From: Bacillota bacterium
GTDB taxonomy: Bacteria; Sysuimicrobiota; Sysuimicrobiia; Sysuimicrobiales; Segetimicrobiaceae
Assembly (NCBI GenBank): GCA_021324975.1
Contig: JAJPIA010000099.1
Location: 1-32,503, forward strand
Direction of reading: 5' to 3'
DNA length: 32,503 nt
Positions 13,190 to 22,116 of this stretch are shown here, piece by piece. A program made the translations under genes and the position numbers. The number at the start of each line of letters is the position of its first letter. Positions within the stretch are counted from its first letter, which is position 1. The notes under the pieces are model-generated. The model saw only the letters and a program-made list of their open reading frames with translations. It did no database searches and was not told the origin of the DNA.

Positions 13190-14764
13190 GTGGCCGGTAT
13201 CGTTCGACAGCGCGTGTTCAAGAACACCTATCGGGATTCGGTGGAGCTGATGCGCATCGCCACCGAGGTGGAACACCTGCCCGGGATCACGCGAGCCGGC
13301 ATCGTGATGGGGACAGAAGCGAACCGTGAGGTGCTCGCGCAGGCCGGCTTGTTACCCGCGGAGGCGGCGGCCACGCGGGCGAGCGACCTCATCGTGGCGG
13401 TCGCGGCCGAAAGCGAGGAGGCCGGAACGGCGGCGCTCGAGCGGGCCGCGGCGGCGCTCAGCGGACCCGCACGCCCGGACAGGGGCGCGGAGGCAGCTGT
13501 ACCCGCAACGACGCTCCACGATGCGTTGGCTGAGATGCCGGACGCCAACCTGGCGCTCGTGTCCACGCCGGGAACCTACGCCACCGCGGAGGCGCTCAAG
13601 GCGCTCAAGCGCGGGCTCCACGTGTTTCTGTTCAGCGACAACGTCCCTGTTGCGGACGAGGTCGCCCTGAAGGACCTCGCCGAGCGTAAGGGCCTGCTCC
13701 TCATGGGACCGGACTGCGGCACGGCGATTCTCGACGGCGTTCCCCTCGGGTTTGCGAACGTCGTGCGGCGCGGGCAGATCGGCCTTGTCGGCGCCTCCGG
13801 GACCGGGCTCCAGCAGGTATCCTGTTTGATCGACCGGCTCGGTGAGGGTGTCTCTCAGGTGATCGGCGTGGGAGGCCGTGACCTTGACGAACGTGTCGCC
13901 GGGCGCATGACCCTGGCGGCGCTCCGTCGGCTTGCCGCCGACGGCGGCACGGCGGTGATCGTCGTGATCTCCAAGCCGCCGGCCCCCGCGGTGGCGGAGC
14001 GCGTCATGGCCGCTGTGCGCGAGTGCCCCAAACCTGTAGTCGTAAACTTTCTCGGGTGGGCGGGGGACGGCACGGCGGCATCGGCGTCAACGTTCGAGGA
14101 CGCCGCGCTCGACGCGGTTGCGCGCCTGCGCGGCGTGGGACGGGACACGCTCGCGCTTGGGACGCCGGAGCGACACGAGCAGTCCTGCGTGAAACCGCGG
14201 CTGGCGCCGGGACAAGCTGAGATCCGCGGGCTGTATTGCGGCGGTTCGTTGGCCGGCGAAGCGAAGCTCGTGCTCCGGCGCGCGCTTGGCGACAGAAGCG
14301 CGGAACGTGTCACGGTCATCGACCTGGGCGACGACGAGTACACAGTCGGCCGCCCGCACCCGATGATCGACCCGAGGCTTCGCAATCAGTGGATCGTGGA
14401 CGCTGGACGCGACCCCAAGGTTGCGGTCATCTTGCTCGACGTCGTGCTCGGGTACAACGCGCATCCCGATCCGGCGGCAGCGCTCGTTCCGGCGATCGAC
14501 CACGCGCGCCGCGAGGCCCGCACCGCGGGGCGTGATCTCGTCGTCGTGGCGTCGGTCTGCGGCACGCCCGGGGATCCGCAAAACCTGCAACGCCAACAGG
14601 CGACACTGACCGGCTGCGGGGTGTGGCTCGCACCAAGCAACGCGGAGGCGGCACGGCTCACGGCGAGCGTGCTCACTGGCGCCGCCGGCGTGATGCCGGA
14701 GCATTCCAGCGGGGCATCCCGTCCGTCGCCGGGGGATCACGCGGGGAACCGGCATGGCGTCTAA
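13190..14764 (+). CDS. fdrA: FdrA-family protein (acyl-CoA synthetase-like; oxamate transcarbamylase subunit family)
   Basis: This 524-residue protein has the layout of succinyl-CoA synthetase-related FdrA. It has an N-terminal FdrA segment (FKNTYRDSVELMRIATEVEHLPGI), a CoA-binding-like Rossmann domain with LLMGPDCGTAILDGVPLGFANVVRRGQIGLVGASGTGLQQV, and a C-terminal ligase-like domain starting IRGLYCGGSLAGEAKLVL. The E. coli homologue, with YlbE and YlbF, has been linked to oxamate carbamoyltransferase activity in allantoin breakdown. The GTG at 13190 follows AGGAG with six bases spacing and lies 4 nt after the GntR gene. The E. coli protein is about 30 residues longer. It overlaps the DUF1116 gene by 11 nt, supporting a complex with that product. 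Confidence 0.85.
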   Translation: MAGIVRQRVFKNTYRDSVELMRIATEVEHLPGITRAGIVMGTEANREVLAQAGLLPAEAAATRASDLIVAVAAESEEAGTAALERAAAALSGPARPDRGAEAAVPATTLHDALAEMPDANLALVSTPGTYATAEALKALKRGLHVFLFSDNVPVADEVALKDLAERKGLLLMGPDCGTAILDGVPLGFANVVRRGQIGLVGASGTGLQQVSCLIDRLGEGVSQVIGVGGRDLDERVAGRMTLAALRRLAADGGTAVIVVISKPPAPAVAERVMAAVRECPKPVVVNFLGWAGDGTAASASTFEDAALDAVARLRGVGRDTLALGTPERHEQSCVKPRLAPGQAEIRGLYCGGSLAGEAKLVLRRALGDRSAERVTVIDLGDDEYTVGRPHPMIDPRLRNQWIVDAGRDPKVAVILLDVVLGYNAHPDPAAALVPAIDHARREARTAGRDLVVVASVCGTPGDPQNLQRQQATLTGCGVWLAPSNAEAARLTASVLTGAAGVMPEHSSGASRPSPGDHAGNRHGV

Positions 14765-16205
14765 CCACGTGCATCACGGATCCACAATCCTCACGGACGG
14801 GATCCGCGCCGTGAACATCGGCCTCGCGGGCTTCGCGGACCCAATCCGCGCCCACGGCGGCGCGTGCACGCAGGTTCAATGGCAGCCGCCGGCGGAGGGG
14901 GATCGCGCGGTCGGCCTGCGTCTGGCGTACCTCGAGGACGACCCTGACGACCGCGCCGGCGCGCTGGTGGGTCGTGCCAACGCGGAGGCCGTCCGGCGGA
15001 TCTCCGAGGGGCACCCTGTAGCGGTGGACGTGCGCACCGCCGCGGACGTGATCCCCGGCATGACGTCGCGCACGCTGCTCCACGCAGGACCGCCGATCCT
15101 CTGGGAACGGATGTGCGGGCCGATGCGCGGCGCCGTCATCGGCGCGGCGCTCCTCGAAGGGTGGGCGGCGACGCCGGAGGAGGCCGGGGCGCTGGCGGGC
15201 CGCGGCGCCATCGACTTTGCGCCATGCCACGAACACGCGACGGTCGGGCCGATGGCCGGCATCGTCTCGCCGTCGATGCCGGTCATCGTGGTCGAAAATC
15301 AGGCGTCTGGCAACCGCGCGTTCTCAAATCTTAACGAGGGCATCGGCAAGATGCTGCGCTACGGCGCCTACGACGAGACCGTGTTGGAGCGCCTCCGGTG
15401 GTTCGCGACGACGCTCGGACCGGTCCTCGGCCGGGCCCTCCGGAGCGCGCCGGTGGACCTGCGAGACCTCACGGCTCGGGCGCTGCAGATGGGCGACGAG
15501 TGTCACAATCGCAACGTCGCCGGCACCTCCCTCTTCATTCGGGCAATCGCCCCCGCCCTGGTCCGCACCGCGCCGGCCGATGCCGCGGCGGTGCTCGAGT
15601 TCATGCGTGGCAACGACCACTTTTATCTCAACTTCTCCATGGCGGCCTGCAAGGCGACGCTCGATGCGGCGCACGGCCTCGAGGGATCCTCTGTCGTCAC
15701 CGCGATGGCCCGCAACGGCGTGGAATTCGGCATCCGCGTGAGCGGGACGGGGGATGCGTGGTTTGTGGCCCCGGCCAGCGTGCCGGACGGCCTGTATTTC
15801 CCAGGGTACGGCGCGCAGGACGCCAACCCGGACATCGGGGACAGCGCGATCACGGAGACGTGCGGGATCGGAGGGTTCGCCATGGCCGCCGCACCCGCCA
15901 TCGTGCGGTTTATCGGCGGTACGCCGGTCGACGCCGTGGCGTTCACCCGCTCGATGTACCGGATCACGCTCGGGCGCAGCCCGGCCTACGTAGTCCCGTC
16001 CCTCGGATTCGTGGGCACGCCGACGGCGATCGACGTCCGGCGCGTGGTGGAGAGCAGCGTGGTCCCCGTGATCGACACGGGCATCGCACACCGGGCACCG
16101 GGAATAGGACAAATCGGCGCCGGAATCACCTCTGCGCCGCGCGGCTGTTTTGCCGCCGCGCTCCATGCGCTGGGCCGGCGCCTCGGCGTGGAGGCGGCGG
16201 CATGA
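14754..16205 (+). CDS. DUF1116 protein (YlbE/AllG-like; oxamate transcarbamylase subunit family)
   Basis: This 483-residue protein carries the conserved DUF1116 core, including GPMRGAVIGAALLEGWA, APCHEHATVGPMAGIVSPSMPV, the strongly conserved ALQMGDECHNRNVAGTSLF, and FYLNFSMAACKATLDAA. DUF1116 genes almost always lie next to fdrA. In E. coli the YlbE product is a subunit associated with conversion of oxalurate to oxamate and carbamoyl phosphate. This copy is about 60 residues longer than YlbE, mainly at its N-terminus. The ATG overlaps fdrA by 11 nt and the stop overlaps carbamate kinase by 4 nt (ATGA), so all three are translationally linked. No DUF2877 (YlbF) gene, the third E. coli partner, is present nearby. 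Confidence 0.85.
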   Translation: MASNHVHHGSTILTDGIRAVNIGLAGFADPIRAHGGACTQVQWQPPAEGDRAVGLRLAYLEDDPDDRAGALVGRANAEAVRRISEGHPVAVDVRTAADVIPGMTSRTLLHAGPPILWERMCGPMRGAVIGAALLEGWAATPEEAGALAGRGAIDFAPCHEHATVGPMAGIVSPSMPVIVVENQASGNRAFSNLNEGIGKMLRYGAYDETVLERLRWFATTLGPVLGRALRSAPVDLRDLTARALQMGDECHNRNVAGTSLFIRAIAPALVRTAPADAAAVLEFMRGNDHFYLNFSMAACKATLDAAHGLEGSSVVTAMARNGVEFGIRVSGTGDAWFVAPASVPDGLYFPGYGAQDANPDIGDSAITETCGIGGFAMAAAPAIVRFIGGTPVDAVAFTRSMYRITLGRSPAYVVPSLGFVGTPTAIDVRRVVESSVVPVIDTGIAHRAPGIGQIGAGITSAPRGCFAAALHALGRRLGVEAAA

Positions 16206-17192: not shown

Positions 17193-17888
17193 ATGATCAA
17201 GGTGGCGGCGGAGCCGTATGAGTTCCTGTTCGATGGCGCGACGGCGGCGCTCGTGATCATCGACATGCAGCGGGATTTCGTCTACCCGGGTGGATTTGGT
17301 GCCGCGCTCGGAAACGACACATCGCTGCTGCTCAAGGCGGTGCCGCCCACTGAGCGCGTGCTCCGCGCGGTGCGGGGCGCCGGGCTCTTCGTCGTGCATA
17401 CCCGCGAAGGGCACCGACCGGATCTCGCAGATCTGCCGCGTGCGAAGAAACTCCGTGGCCACCTCACCGTGGGCATCGGGGATCCCGGTCCCATGGGTCG
17501 TATCCTGGTCCGAGGGGAACACGGGCACGACATCGTGGACGAGCTCACACCGCTCCCGGGCGAGCCCGTAGTGGACAAACCCGGAAAGGGCGCATTCTAC
17601 GCTACCGACCTTGACGCCATCCTGCGCGCTCGCGGGATCGCTCAACTCATCGTCTGCGGCGTCACGACTGAAGTCTGCGTGCACACTACCGTGCGCGAAG
17701 CCAACGACCGCGGCTATGACTGCCTTGTCCTCGCGGACTGCGTAGCGTCCTACTTCGCTGAGTTTCAGGACGTCGGGCTCAAGATGATCAAGGCGCAGGG
17801 TGGCATCTTCGGCTGGGTCGCGGACTCGAGCCGATTGATCGACGCGCTGGCGGCGGCGCCGCAGGCAACAGGCGCCGTACGCACGTGA
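17193..17888 (+). CDS. Isochorismatase-family cysteine hydrolase (amidohydrolase)
   Basis: This 231-residue hydrolase has the family triad in order: D24 (VIIDMQRDF), K129 ([15 protein letters not shown]) and C162 ([15 protein letters not shown]). It lacks a signal peptide and should act in the cytoplasm. Relatives hydrolyse N-carbamoyl or ureido amides (biuret, N-carbamoylsarcosine, ureidoacrylate) as well as nicotinamide and isochorismate. GGAGGCGAG precedes the ATG. Placed between carbamate kinase and a permease, it most likely removes ammonia or a carbamoyl group from the imported nitrogen compound or a downstream intermediate. The exact bond cannot be decided from the motifs. Confidence 0.88.
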
Positions 17889-17919
17889 CGTACGGGTGCG
17901 GGGGGAGGAGGGAGGAGTG

Positions 17920-19527
17920 ATGGCGGTGTCCACGTCGGGGGAGTTTCGGCCGCGCCTGTGGGCGGCGGGAGATTGGAACGCATTCTTCGGTCTCGGCACG
18001 AACGTGATCCTCAACGTGATCGTGTTGAGCAGTCTCGTGCTCGGCGTCGTGAAACTGCCGGAGGGAATCGTGTTTGGCAGGATCCTGCCGGCGCTCGGCA
18101 TCGCCCTGCCGCTCGGCAACGTCTTCTATGCCTACCTGGCGTACCGGCTCGCCCGCGCGGAGCGCCGCGAGGACGTCGCCGCGATGCCGTACGGGCCAAG
18201 CGTGCCGCACATGTTCATCGTCGTGTTCGTGATCATGCTCCCGATCGTGCTGGCCACGCACGATCCCCTGAAGGCATGGGAAGCGGGGCTCGCCTGGTGC
18301 TTCATCATCGGCGTCATCATCCTCATCGGCGCGTTCATCGGGCCGACGATCCGCGCCTTCACGCCCCGGGCGGCGATGCTGGGTACGCTGGCCGGAATCT
18401 CCATCGTGTTCATCTCCATGCGGCCGGCGTTCCAGATCTGGGAGGTCCCGTGGATCGGGTTCATCGCGCTCGCGGTGATCCTGGTGAGCTGGGTCGCGAA
18501 TGTCCGGCTTCCATTCAATGTGCCCGGCGGGCTCGCCGCAGTGGTCATCGGTACGGCGGTGGGATGGATCGCCGAGTTGCTCGGATGGAAGGGCGTGCTC
18601 ATCCCCTCCGCGGTGGCCGACTCATTCCGCCAGTTCGGGCTGCATCTGCCGGTCCCAGGCGGCGAGGTGCTCCGCGGTCTGCGGGATATGGGACCGCTGC
18701 TGGCCACCGCGATCCCGCTCGGCGTCTACAACTTCACGGAAGGCATGAACAATGTCGAGAGCGCATCGGCGGCCGGCGACAGCTACAGCCTGCGGGCGAT
18801 CTTGCTGGCCGACGGAACGGGGGCCATCGTTGGCTCGTTTCTCGGCAGTCCGTTTCCGCCGGCCGTTTACATCGGGCACCCCGGATGGAAGGCGGTCGGG
18901 GGGCGGATCGGGTACTCGCTCGCGACCGGGGTGGCCGTGGCCGGCGTGGTGTTTTTGGGATTGGTAGCCTTGCTGCTCGCCGTGATCCCGATCCAGGCGC
19001 TCCTCCCGATCCTGCTCTTCATCGGTCTCGTGATCGGCGCCCAGGCCTTTCAAACCACGCCCGCACGGCACGCCCCGGCCGTGGCGCTGGCGCTCTTGCC
19101 GAACGTTGCGCTGTGGGCGAAGGGGCTTGTGGACGATGTCCTCGCCGCGGCCGGGACCGACGCCGCGAAGCTCGGTCTCGACAAGACCGGGGTGGGCGAC
19201 ATCTACCACGGCATGGCGCTGTTTGGGGGCGGGGCAGTGCTCGCGGGCATGGTGATCGGCGCGATCGCGGCCTTCGTCATCGACCGCGACTTCGTGCGCG
19301 CGACGGTGGCGACGCTGGCGGGCGCGGTCTTTTCGTTCTTCGGGCTGATCAACTCCGTCGGGCCCGTCGGCGTTAATGTGTCCGCGACCGTCACGCTCGG
19401 CTACCTGCTGATGGCCGCGAGCTTCGCCGTCGCCGCCTGGCACGCTGGACAGGTCGGCGCGGAGCGTACCGCGGTGCAGGCCCGGTCGCCGGCAGCCGAG
19501 GGGGCCACGGGCGGCGATGGCGTCTGA
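17920..19527 (+). CDS. NCS2/AzgA-like nucleobase permease
   Basis: This 535-residue membrane protein has about 12-14 hydrophobic segments. It begins with DWNAFFGLGTNVILNVIVLSSL and includes AAMPYGPSVPHMFIVVF, FTEGMNNVESASAAGDSY, GAIVGSFLGSPFPPAVYIGHPGWKAVGGRIGYSL and a C-terminal GLINSVGP segment. The NVESAS...D and NPFPP-like elements are those of purine/xanthine/uracil permeases of the NCS2 superfamily. The ATG at 17920 directly follows GGAGGAG; an earlier in-frame ATG or GTG at 17896 lacks such a site. Its place in the operon makes it the probable importer of the substrate. It overlaps the next gene by 11 nt. Confidence 0.82.
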   Translation: MAVSTSGEFRPRLWAAGDWNAFFGLGTNVILNVIVLSSLVLGVVKLPEGIVFGRILPALGIALPLGNVFYAYLAYRLARAERREDVAAMPYGPSVPHMFIVVFVIMLPIVLATHDPLKAWEAGLAWCFIIGVIILIGAFIGPTIRAFTPRAAMLGTLAGISIVFISMRPAFQIWEVPWIGFIALAVILVSWVANVRLPFNVPGGLAAVVIGTAVGWIAELLGWKGVLIPSAVADSFRQFGLHLPVPGGEVLRGLRDMGPLLATAIPLGVYNFTEGMNNVESASAAGDSYSLRAILLADGTGAIVGSFLGSPFPPAVYIGHPGWKAVGGRIGYSLATGVAVAGVVFLGLVALLLAVIPIQALLPILLFIGLVIGAQAFQTTPARHAPAVALALLPNVALWAKGLVDDVLAAAGTDAAKLGLDKTGVGDIYHGMALFGGGAVLAGMVIGAIAAFVIDRDFVRATVATLAGAVFSFFGLINSVGPVGVNVSATVTLGYLLMAASFAVAAWHAGQVGAERTAVQARSPAAEGATGGDGV

Positions 19528-20044: not shown

Positions 20045-21292
20045 ATGTTGCATCTCGATACGGGCAACACCGCGTTCATGATTCTCTGTTCCAGCCTGGT
20101 GATGCTCATGACACCGGGTCTGGCTTTCTTCTACGGTGGGCTGGTGGGCCGAAAGAACGTTTTGGCCATCATGATCCAGAGTTTCGTTTCCATGGGTTGG
20201 ACGACCGTCATCTGGTGGATGTGCGGGTTTTCATTGTGCTTTAGCGGCGATCTGAAATCTGGTACGGACTTTGGCGGCATTATTGGCAACTTTCACTGGG
20301 CGTTTCTGAGAGGGATCACGCTGTCGACACCGTCACCCAACGACACCATTCCGATGATCGTCTTTTGCGCGTATCAGATGATGTTCGCGATCATCACACC
20401 CGCGCTCATTACCGGCGCATTTACCAATCGCGTGGCGTTCAAAGCGTACATGCTATTCTTGACCGCGTGGCTATTGTTCGTGTATTTCCCCTTTGTGCAC
20501 ATGATCTGGGGAGGGGGCCTCCTATCGACCTGGGGCGTGAAAGACTTCGCAGGCGGCATTGTGGTGCACAACATCGCCGGGATGGCAGCTCTTGCTTCGG
20601 TCCTCTATGTAGGCAAGCGGCGTGTGGTCGACGAAGGCCCGCACAGCATTCCGCTTGTCGCTCTGGGGACGGGGCTTCTCTGGTTCGGATGGTATGGATT
20701 CAACGCCGGCAGCGAGTTCCGCGTAGACTCGGTCACCGCGGTGGCGTTCTTGAATACCGACGTCGCGGCGTCGTTTGCCGCGATCGCGTGGCTCATGATG
20801 GACTGGCTCATGAACCGGAAGCCGCGTTTTCTTGGGCTGCTTACAGGGGCGGTGGCCGGCTTGGCTACGATCACCCCGGCCGCCGGATATGTGGCGCCGT
20901 CGACCGCGTGCCTCATCGGGATCGCGTCGGGCCCTGTCTGTTACTGGGCCGTGGAACTGAAAAATCGCCTGAAATGGGACGACGCATTGGACGTGTGGGG
21001 TGTGCACGGGGTTGGCGGGTACCTCGGGATTTTCATGTTGGGCATCTTCGCGTCGACGGCGTGGAATCCGTCGGCGTCCGGCGGCGTCGACGGGTTGCTA
21101 CGCGGTGGCACCTATTTCTTTTTCATGCAGTGGGGCGCCGCGACGTTGGCGTCGGTGTGGGCATTCCTCTTCAGCTTCGGGATGCTTGTGCTCATTGAAC
21201 GCATTACACCGGTGAAAGTCTCGGAGCTGACCGAGGAAGTCGGTCTCGATCAAGGCATCCACGGTGAGCAAGCGTACGCAGTGGGCGTCTAA
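20045..21292 (+). CDS. amtB: Ammonium transporter, Amt family
   Basis: This 415-residue protein has 11 predicted helices. The N-terminus is NTAFMILCSSLVMLMTPGLAFFYGGLVGRKNVL, typical of Amt. The pore's twin histidines are H175 (GIVVHNIAG) and H321 (DVWGVHGVGGYLG), at nearly the same positions as in E. coli AmtB. WFGWYGFNAGS and MFAIITPALITGAF blocks are present. It conducts ammonium/ammonia across the inner membrane. It lies 120 nt after the ureide operon and may have its own promoter. Its codons look less GC-rich at third positions than the neighbours, judged by eye, so it may have a different history. No PII (glnK) gene follows, which is unusual for amtB. Confidence 0.93.
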   Translation: MLHLDTGNTAFMILCSSLVMLMTPGLAFFYGGLVGRKNVLAIMIQSFVSMGWTTVIWWMCGFSLCFSGDLKSGTDFGGIIGNFHWAFLRGITLSTPSPNDTIPMIVFCAYQMMFAIITPALITGAFTNRVAFKAYMLFLTAWLLFVYFPFVHMIWGGGLLSTWGVKDFAGGIVVHNIAGMAALASVLYVGKRRVVDEGPHSIPLVALGTGLLWFGWYGFNAGSEFRVDSVTAVAFLNTDVAASFAAIAWLMMDWLMNRKPRFLGLLTGAVAGLATITPAAGYVAPSTACLIGIASGPVCYWAVELKNRLKWDDALDVWGVHGVGGYLGIFMLGIFASTAWNPSASGGVDGLLRGGTYFFFMQWGAATLASVWAFLFSFGMLVLIERITPVKVSELTEEVGLDQGIHGEQAYAVGV

Positions 21293-21527
21293 CGTACTCC
21301 TCAAGGCCGGACAACGCGATGCCCGCATGCATGCACGCGGTGGAAGAAGCCACAAGCGTCGATATGCGGATCGCATCGTGGCGGAGGTACTGCATCATAT
21401 CGATGAGGTTAGCGCGGGCACTGCCGGCTGGGTTCTCGATCTCTAACACGACGCGACGCGGGGCGGGGAAGGACTCCGCAGGGGCTCCAAGAAAGAGGGC
21501 CTTGAGACGGCCCCAGGGAGGTGGGGG
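21293..21527 (+). other. Intergenic region between amtB and the DsrE-like gene
   Basis: A 235-base gap. Short frames (for example one ending at 21446 that overlaps the amtB tail) are Arg/His-rich and match nothing I know. No hairpin followed by a T-run is visible. GGGAGGT at 21516-21522 is the ribosome-binding site of the next gene. Confidence 0.4.
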
Positions 21528-21890
21528 ATGGCGACGTTGTTCTTCCAGGGAACGTGCGGATCGGAGAATCCGACGAAGGCAGTGTTGCCGCTTCTGGGCG
21601 CGATCGGCGCGGTCGAGTCGGGGCACAAAGCCACGATCGCCCTCGTCGGAGACGGCGTGGTCCTGATGAGGACTCCGGTGGCAGACGCAGTCGTGCCGGT
21701 CGGCTGGCCCCCGTACAAAGACTTGCTGGCAAAGGTGATCCAGCATAAGATTCCGATCTATGTCTGAGGCGGCTGCGCGGCCGCCCGTGGGGTGACCCAA
21801 GAGGACTTGAACGGCAAAAACGGCACGTTTATCAATCCGACGCGCGCCGTCGAGTTGATGCTGGAGGCTGATCGGACCGTCGCGTACTGA
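21528..21890 (+). CDS. DsrE-family protein with in-frame TGA at catalytic Cys (candidate selenoprotein)
   Basis: Read with TGA at 21765-21767 as a sense codon, the frame encodes 120 residues, the normal size of a single-domain DsrE protein. The start is MATLFFQGTCGSENPTKA and the part before the TGA ends in HKIPIYV. The part after it reads GGCAAARGVTQEDLNGKNGT and ends in AVELMLEADRTVAY, stopping at TGA 21888-21890. Relatives have YVCGGCAxARG here, so the TGA replaces the first Cys of CGGC, giving U80-G-G-C83. No other lesion exists: frame, length and C-terminal similarity are intact on both sides. GGGAGGT with five bases spacing precedes the ATG. DsrE proteins carry sulfur or act as small redox proteins in the cytoplasm. 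If TGA were a stop, a 79-residue product would end just before the active site. Confidence 0.72.
21788..21799 (+). other. Candidate SECIS element after the DsrE TGA
   Basis: TGGG (21788-21791) and CCCA (21796-21799) can form a short stem around the loop GTGA (21792-21795). The loop starts with G and lies 24 nt after the TGA, within the published distance range for bacterial SECIS. The stem is only 4 bp, which is weak. A stronger stem, GGCGGC/GCCGCC at 21768-21785, starts directly after the TGA and may contribute, but it is closer than the usual model. Confidence 0.3.
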
Positions 21891-22017: not shown

Positions 22018-22116
22018 CGGAACCGCCGACCAGGGCCCGGCATGTGGATGTACCACTGTCACATCCTTGAGCACCACGCGACCGGAATGATGGCGCACTT
22101 CGACGTCGTTCGGTGA
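22018..22116 (+). pseudogene. Multicopper oxidase C-terminal remnant
   Basis: The frame ending in TGA at 22114-22116 reads GMWMYHCHILEHHATGMMAH, the unmistakable last copper-binding block (HCH...H...M) of multicopper oxidases. Just upstream the sequence continues the family pattern (TADQGP) only in another frame, so there is a frameshift around 22035. Before about 22000 no oxidase sequence is found. Over 400 residues are therefore absent, and this is a degenerate tail. Confidence 0.75.

Follow-up and report, generated by a model that had tools for sequence, protein, structure and literature searches.

Evidence for a DsrE/DsrF-like selenoprotein encoded across an in-frame TGA in an uncultured bacterial phylum

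An open frame and a modelled DsrE fold across the TGA

The gene at positions 21528-21890 on the forward strand of the window (the whole 32,503-nt stretch of DNA analysed) almost certainly encodes a DsrE/DsrF-like selenoprotein. Its ORF starts at ATG 21528, 4 nt behind a Shine-Dalgarno-like AGGGAGGTG (21515-21523, +) read directly from the sequence, and terminates with TGA 21888-21890. A single in-frame TGA (21765-21767) occupies codon 80. Read-through of this codon gives a 120-residue product, MATLFFQ...IPIYV-U-GGC-AAARGV...TVAY, in which residue 80 and Cys83 (21774-21776) form a UxxC motif (UGGC). A preliminary description of this DNA had reported a frame open on either side of one TGA, with a normal stop after 120 residues, and this was exact on re-reading. 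It had also expected the gene to be mis-annotated as a truncation, and the ORF from ATG 21528 is indeed 79 aa without recoding.

The read-through protein matched the Pfam DsrE family (PF02635) with 45.1 bits (E=1.3e-11), above the gathering cut-off of 22.7, whereas the 79-residue product scored only 13.4 bits (E=0.089). Since the DsrE match needs the region beyond the TGA, this region belongs to the gene. AlphaFold2 modelling of the aligned read-through protein gave a complete DsrE fold with a pLDDT of 97.6 at full length. In the model Sec80 is the last residue of strand 77-80, at the start of helix 81-87, and helices 81-87, 91-94 and 104-113 as well as strands 99-102 and 116-119 lie beyond the TGA. 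YchN was the nearest PDB structure (TM 0.81), and Syntrophomonas DsrE, DsrEF and TusD were also structural neighbours; by the model and this comparison the reactive residue sits where a core strand leads into a helix, as in the DsrE fold. Because other window genes end at TGA, translation might instead stop at codon 80 and the 79-residue product might be active. Such a product would lack Cys83, two strands and the helices past residue 80, and homologues align end to end with the read-through protein, their coding past the TGA being conserved to the same end point. A functional truncation was rejected on the incomplete fold and the conserved downstream coding, and is extremely improbable.

TGA is the ordinary stop codon of several other window genes (e.g. 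17193-17888, 17896-19527 and 14754-16205), which indicates that the recoding of TGA 21765-21767 is local, as had been proposed from the sequence.

The TGA codon is conserved among homologues

Nine further homologues share the TGA of codon 80. Six come from same-family genomes (L016-L021) and three from Planctomycetota, namely bacterium KatS3mg102 (L025), L077 and L078. In the last two (DsrE genes of genomes G111 and G231) this TGA lies in the contexts YVUGLC and FGUGLC, respectively. The stop at codon 80 of the Sec forms was always TGA and never TAA or TAG, and Cys83 was kept in 10/10 Sec-form sequences. Among five Sec-form relatives, Nei-Gojobori dN/dS was 0.06-0.27 for the part upstream of the TGA and 0.06-0.33 for the part downstream. 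The recurrence of TGA at this codon in the nine homologues, all of other genomes, rules out a sequencing error; a misread TGC or TGT at 21765, a possibility raised in the preliminary description, is at odds with these sequences.

These data also bear on the possibility that a DsrE gene of the Cys or Ser form acquired the TGA through a plain nonsense mutation, or shows it through an error. Only a single codon stands between the gene and an ordinary ORF, and a 0.9-kb stretch behind the gene looks degenerate. However, the nine other genomes with TGA at this codon, the exclusive use of TGA, the dN/dS after the TGA being as low as before it, and the complete Sec machinery of the genome (see below) all speak against a pseudogene. 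It was rejected because it is refuted by the cross-genome conservation, and is scarcely credible.

Cys occupied the codon-80 position in about 30 more distant homologues as well as in YchN and TusD, so that the alternation of Sec and Cys sought among DsrE homologues was observed. The Cys forms comprised G042, 27 Planctomycetota (CSPC/CAPC), Nocardioides (CGAC), Haladaptatus (CEPC) and YchN (CKTC); in TusD the Cys stands at the first motif position. A third group, from Microvirga, Deinococcus and G004, has Ser at 80 (SGxS) and lacks both redox residues. The Planctomycetota Cys forms and the Ser forms share the length and alignment of the selenoprotein and differ from it at residue 80. The tree left it unsettled whether the Sec forms make up a single clade. 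A plasmid search yielded four homologues, none with Sec, and no relatives were found in a scan of viral contigs.

The Ser-form homologue of G004 (L022, G004:C86:8292-8645, YLSGLSSKARGV) keeps a hairpin in the SECIS register described below. As no selB match was found in this genome (89% complete), the gene may hold a relic SECIS. It is conceivable, though rather unlikely, that this DsrE subfamily originally had Sec and that the Ser forms of Microvirga, Deinococcus and G004 are former selenoproteins, in which UGA changed to UCN and the partner Cys was then lost.

The genome carries the selenocysteine machinery

The preliminary description had suggested a search for selA, selB, selD and tRNA-Sec and had regarded an absence of selB or selC as evidence against its reading. 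All four were present in the window's genome. Contig C119 carries selA (535 bits; cut-off 267.9) directly ahead of selB (336 bits; cut-off 242), as well as a tRNA-Sec with anticodon UCA (74 bits; cut-off 47), and selD lies on contig C97 (380 bits; cut-off 125). The tetranucleotide composition of C119 matches that of the window (correlation 0.991), and mis-binning of C119 is therefore unlikely. Among seven further Sec-form genomes (the six of the same family and KatS3mg102), selB was found in six and tRNA-Sec in six; G031 (68% complete) was the only one without both. Thus the selenoprotein reading given earlier is supported by a TGA kept across 10 genomes and by SelA, SelB, SelD and tRNA-Sec in the same genome.

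Read-through with a residue other than Sec, through a suppressor tRNA or a general reassignment of UGA to Trp, Gly or Cys, was also considered, because read-through by itself accounts for the open frame. The tRNA-Sec(UCA) and SelB of the genome, and the location of the codon at the redox Cys of the family, argue against it. General UGA recoding was rejected since TGA ends several window genes, and insertion of another residue is very improbable.

selB was carried by 31 of the 43 genomes of the window's uncultured phylum. Two genomes of the same genus, G026 and G027, also have selB, and no Sec-DsrE gene was found in them, a point against the selenoprotein reading. In genome G029, selB occurs twice (G029:C34:5051-7033 and G029:C11:65169-68679), with a separate tRNA-Sec gene close to each copy, and G028 likewise has two selB matches; the second copies may reflect contamination or the acquisition of another system.

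Two other genes of the window's genome contain an in-frame TGA and are predicted selenoproteins. One is selD itself (L030, G000:C97:34566-35486, -), with the context ACAGUASKLSP. The other is an FdhA-like gene (L054, G000:C126:22722-24584, -) with the context NRTUHAPS, in which a SECIS-like apical loop GGUCU follows the TGA.

A hairpin in a conserved register follows the UGA

A predicted bSECIS hairpin was located at 21780-21796 (+) by folding and register comparison. Its stem (21780-21786/21790-21796) contains one C.A mismatch and its apical loop is GUG (21787-21789). The first eight Sec genes have in common a hairpin (columns 16-22/26-32) whose loop, GGG or GUG, lies 19 nt past the UGA. In these genes 98.2% of the hairpin cells pair, and the pairing was destroyed when the partners were slid by 1-3 columns. 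Compensation is seen at two pairs (G-C/C-G and A-U/U-A), a covariation that amounts to about one change, between two clades. The register hairpin was the local fold in 9/10 Sec genes, whereas only 1/33 of the non-Sec homologues had it; in L078 the register is shifted. None of 4000 random window positions gave a hairpin of the same register that satisfied the criteria, and 12% gave some acceptable hairpin. Since ARGV is itself conserved, the conservation of the hairpin is partly driven by the protein.

The published bSECIS model (PMC13188914) specifies a loop of 3-9 nt with G in the first two positions, a stem of 4-16 bp, a spacing of 16-37 nt and an MFE of -7.5 kcal/mol or lower, and its strict form was passed by seven of the first eight Sec genes. 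The window copy, with loop GUG, spacing 19, five contiguous bp and the C.A mismatch, gave -9.1 kcal/mol for +10..+39 and failed the strict, uninterrupted-helix form of the energy test. Synonymous-codon shuffles singled out the hairpin in three relatives (0.0075-0.02) but not in the window (fraction 0.35), so that the case for the hairpin rests on its conserved register and not on folding energy. For a bSECIS within the 60 nt after the TGA, the comparison among Sec genes shows a conserved register; the window copy taken singly is weak. Nearer to the UGA, the window also contains a competing GGCGGCU/GGCCGCC hairpin, which is more stable in isolation; with the UGA in the A site, the ribosome is expected to cover this nearer hairpin.

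Gene neighbourhood

An Amt ammonium transporter gene (20045-21292, +; PF00909, E=1.3e-103) is the neighbour of the selenoprotein gene and is separate from it. Comparison of the window with the relatives examined revealed no conserved operon. Amt recurs beside the Sec-DsrE gene in one other genome only, G030 (L067; PF00909, E=1.3e-60), and gives no clear clue to the role. Neither the window nor the relatives examined showed TusBCD/DsrEFH partner genes, and the protein is thus not assigned as a TusD/DsrE sulfur-relay subunit; the NCBIfam TusB model gave only 14.8 bits with it, against a cut-off of 49.2.

Further along the window, positions 22040-22116 (+) hold a short reading, GMWMYHCHILEHHATGMMAHFDVVR, ended by a stop, with similarity to the C-terminal end of multicopper oxidases. 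A complete gene in front of it is absent, and it is possibly a gene remnant.

Proposed decoding and chemistry

In the explanation that we favour, UGA 21765-21767 would be decoded as Sec by SelB and tRNA-Sec(UCA), aided by the hairpin just downstream, and the product would be a 120-residue, single-domain, TusD/YchN-like protein. This explanation as a whole is highly probable. The UxxC motif and the fold predict that Sec80 and Cys83 form a redox pair, with Cys83 as the resolving thiol. Sec80, at the strand end and helix N-terminus where the Cys of TusD aligns, would be the nucleophile; its selenolate may attack sulfane sulfur or another thiol-reactive substrate, leading to uptake or reduction, after which Cys83 would make a selenenyl sulfide with Sec80 and a cellular thiol reductant would reopen it. 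The chances that this chemistry holds are about even. We infer that the most likely role is that of a small thiol/sulfur-transfer or disulfide oxidoreductase with a Sec80-Cys83 centre. Sulfur transfer is favoured because of the family and because a TusA-family gene lies directly upstream of the Nocardioides homologue; plain disulfide or peroxide reduction is a possible alternative.

Relation to known proteins and significance

The gene adds to an already known kind of protein. DsrE-like UxxC selenoproteins were listed in the Sargasso Sea survey of 2005 (PMC1088965), and have been described in Desulfovibrio vulgaris (PMC1794560), in the GOS survey as 'DsrE 1/DsrE 2' (PMC2398784), in PMC9312934, and with WP_014524487.1 as an example in PMC13188914; their function is uncharacterised (PMC1088965, PMC1794560, PMC2398784, PMC9312934, PMC13188914). 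By their published descriptions, they have in common with the present protein the PF02635 fold, Sec in UxxC and a SECIS, here a predicted one, immediately after the UGA, but they come from other lineages, whereas the genes reported here belong to an uncultured phylum and to Planctomycetota. E. coli YchN (1JX7) is the best structural match, and its CKTC-TDGRGIS aligns with UGGC-AAARGVT, although it has Cys for Sec and shares ~16% identity in the structural alignment. TusD/DsrE (2D1P, 2HY5) have the same fold, but are subunits of TusBCD/DsrEFH complexes.

The present results add a well-supported and otherwise mis-annotated selenoprotein to an uncultured phylum, and indicate that UxxC DsrE proteins with Sec occur in Planctomycetota too. 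The Sec, Cys and Ser forms of one small protein make up a series that may serve as a probe of the contribution of selenium to sulfur-transfer chemistry.
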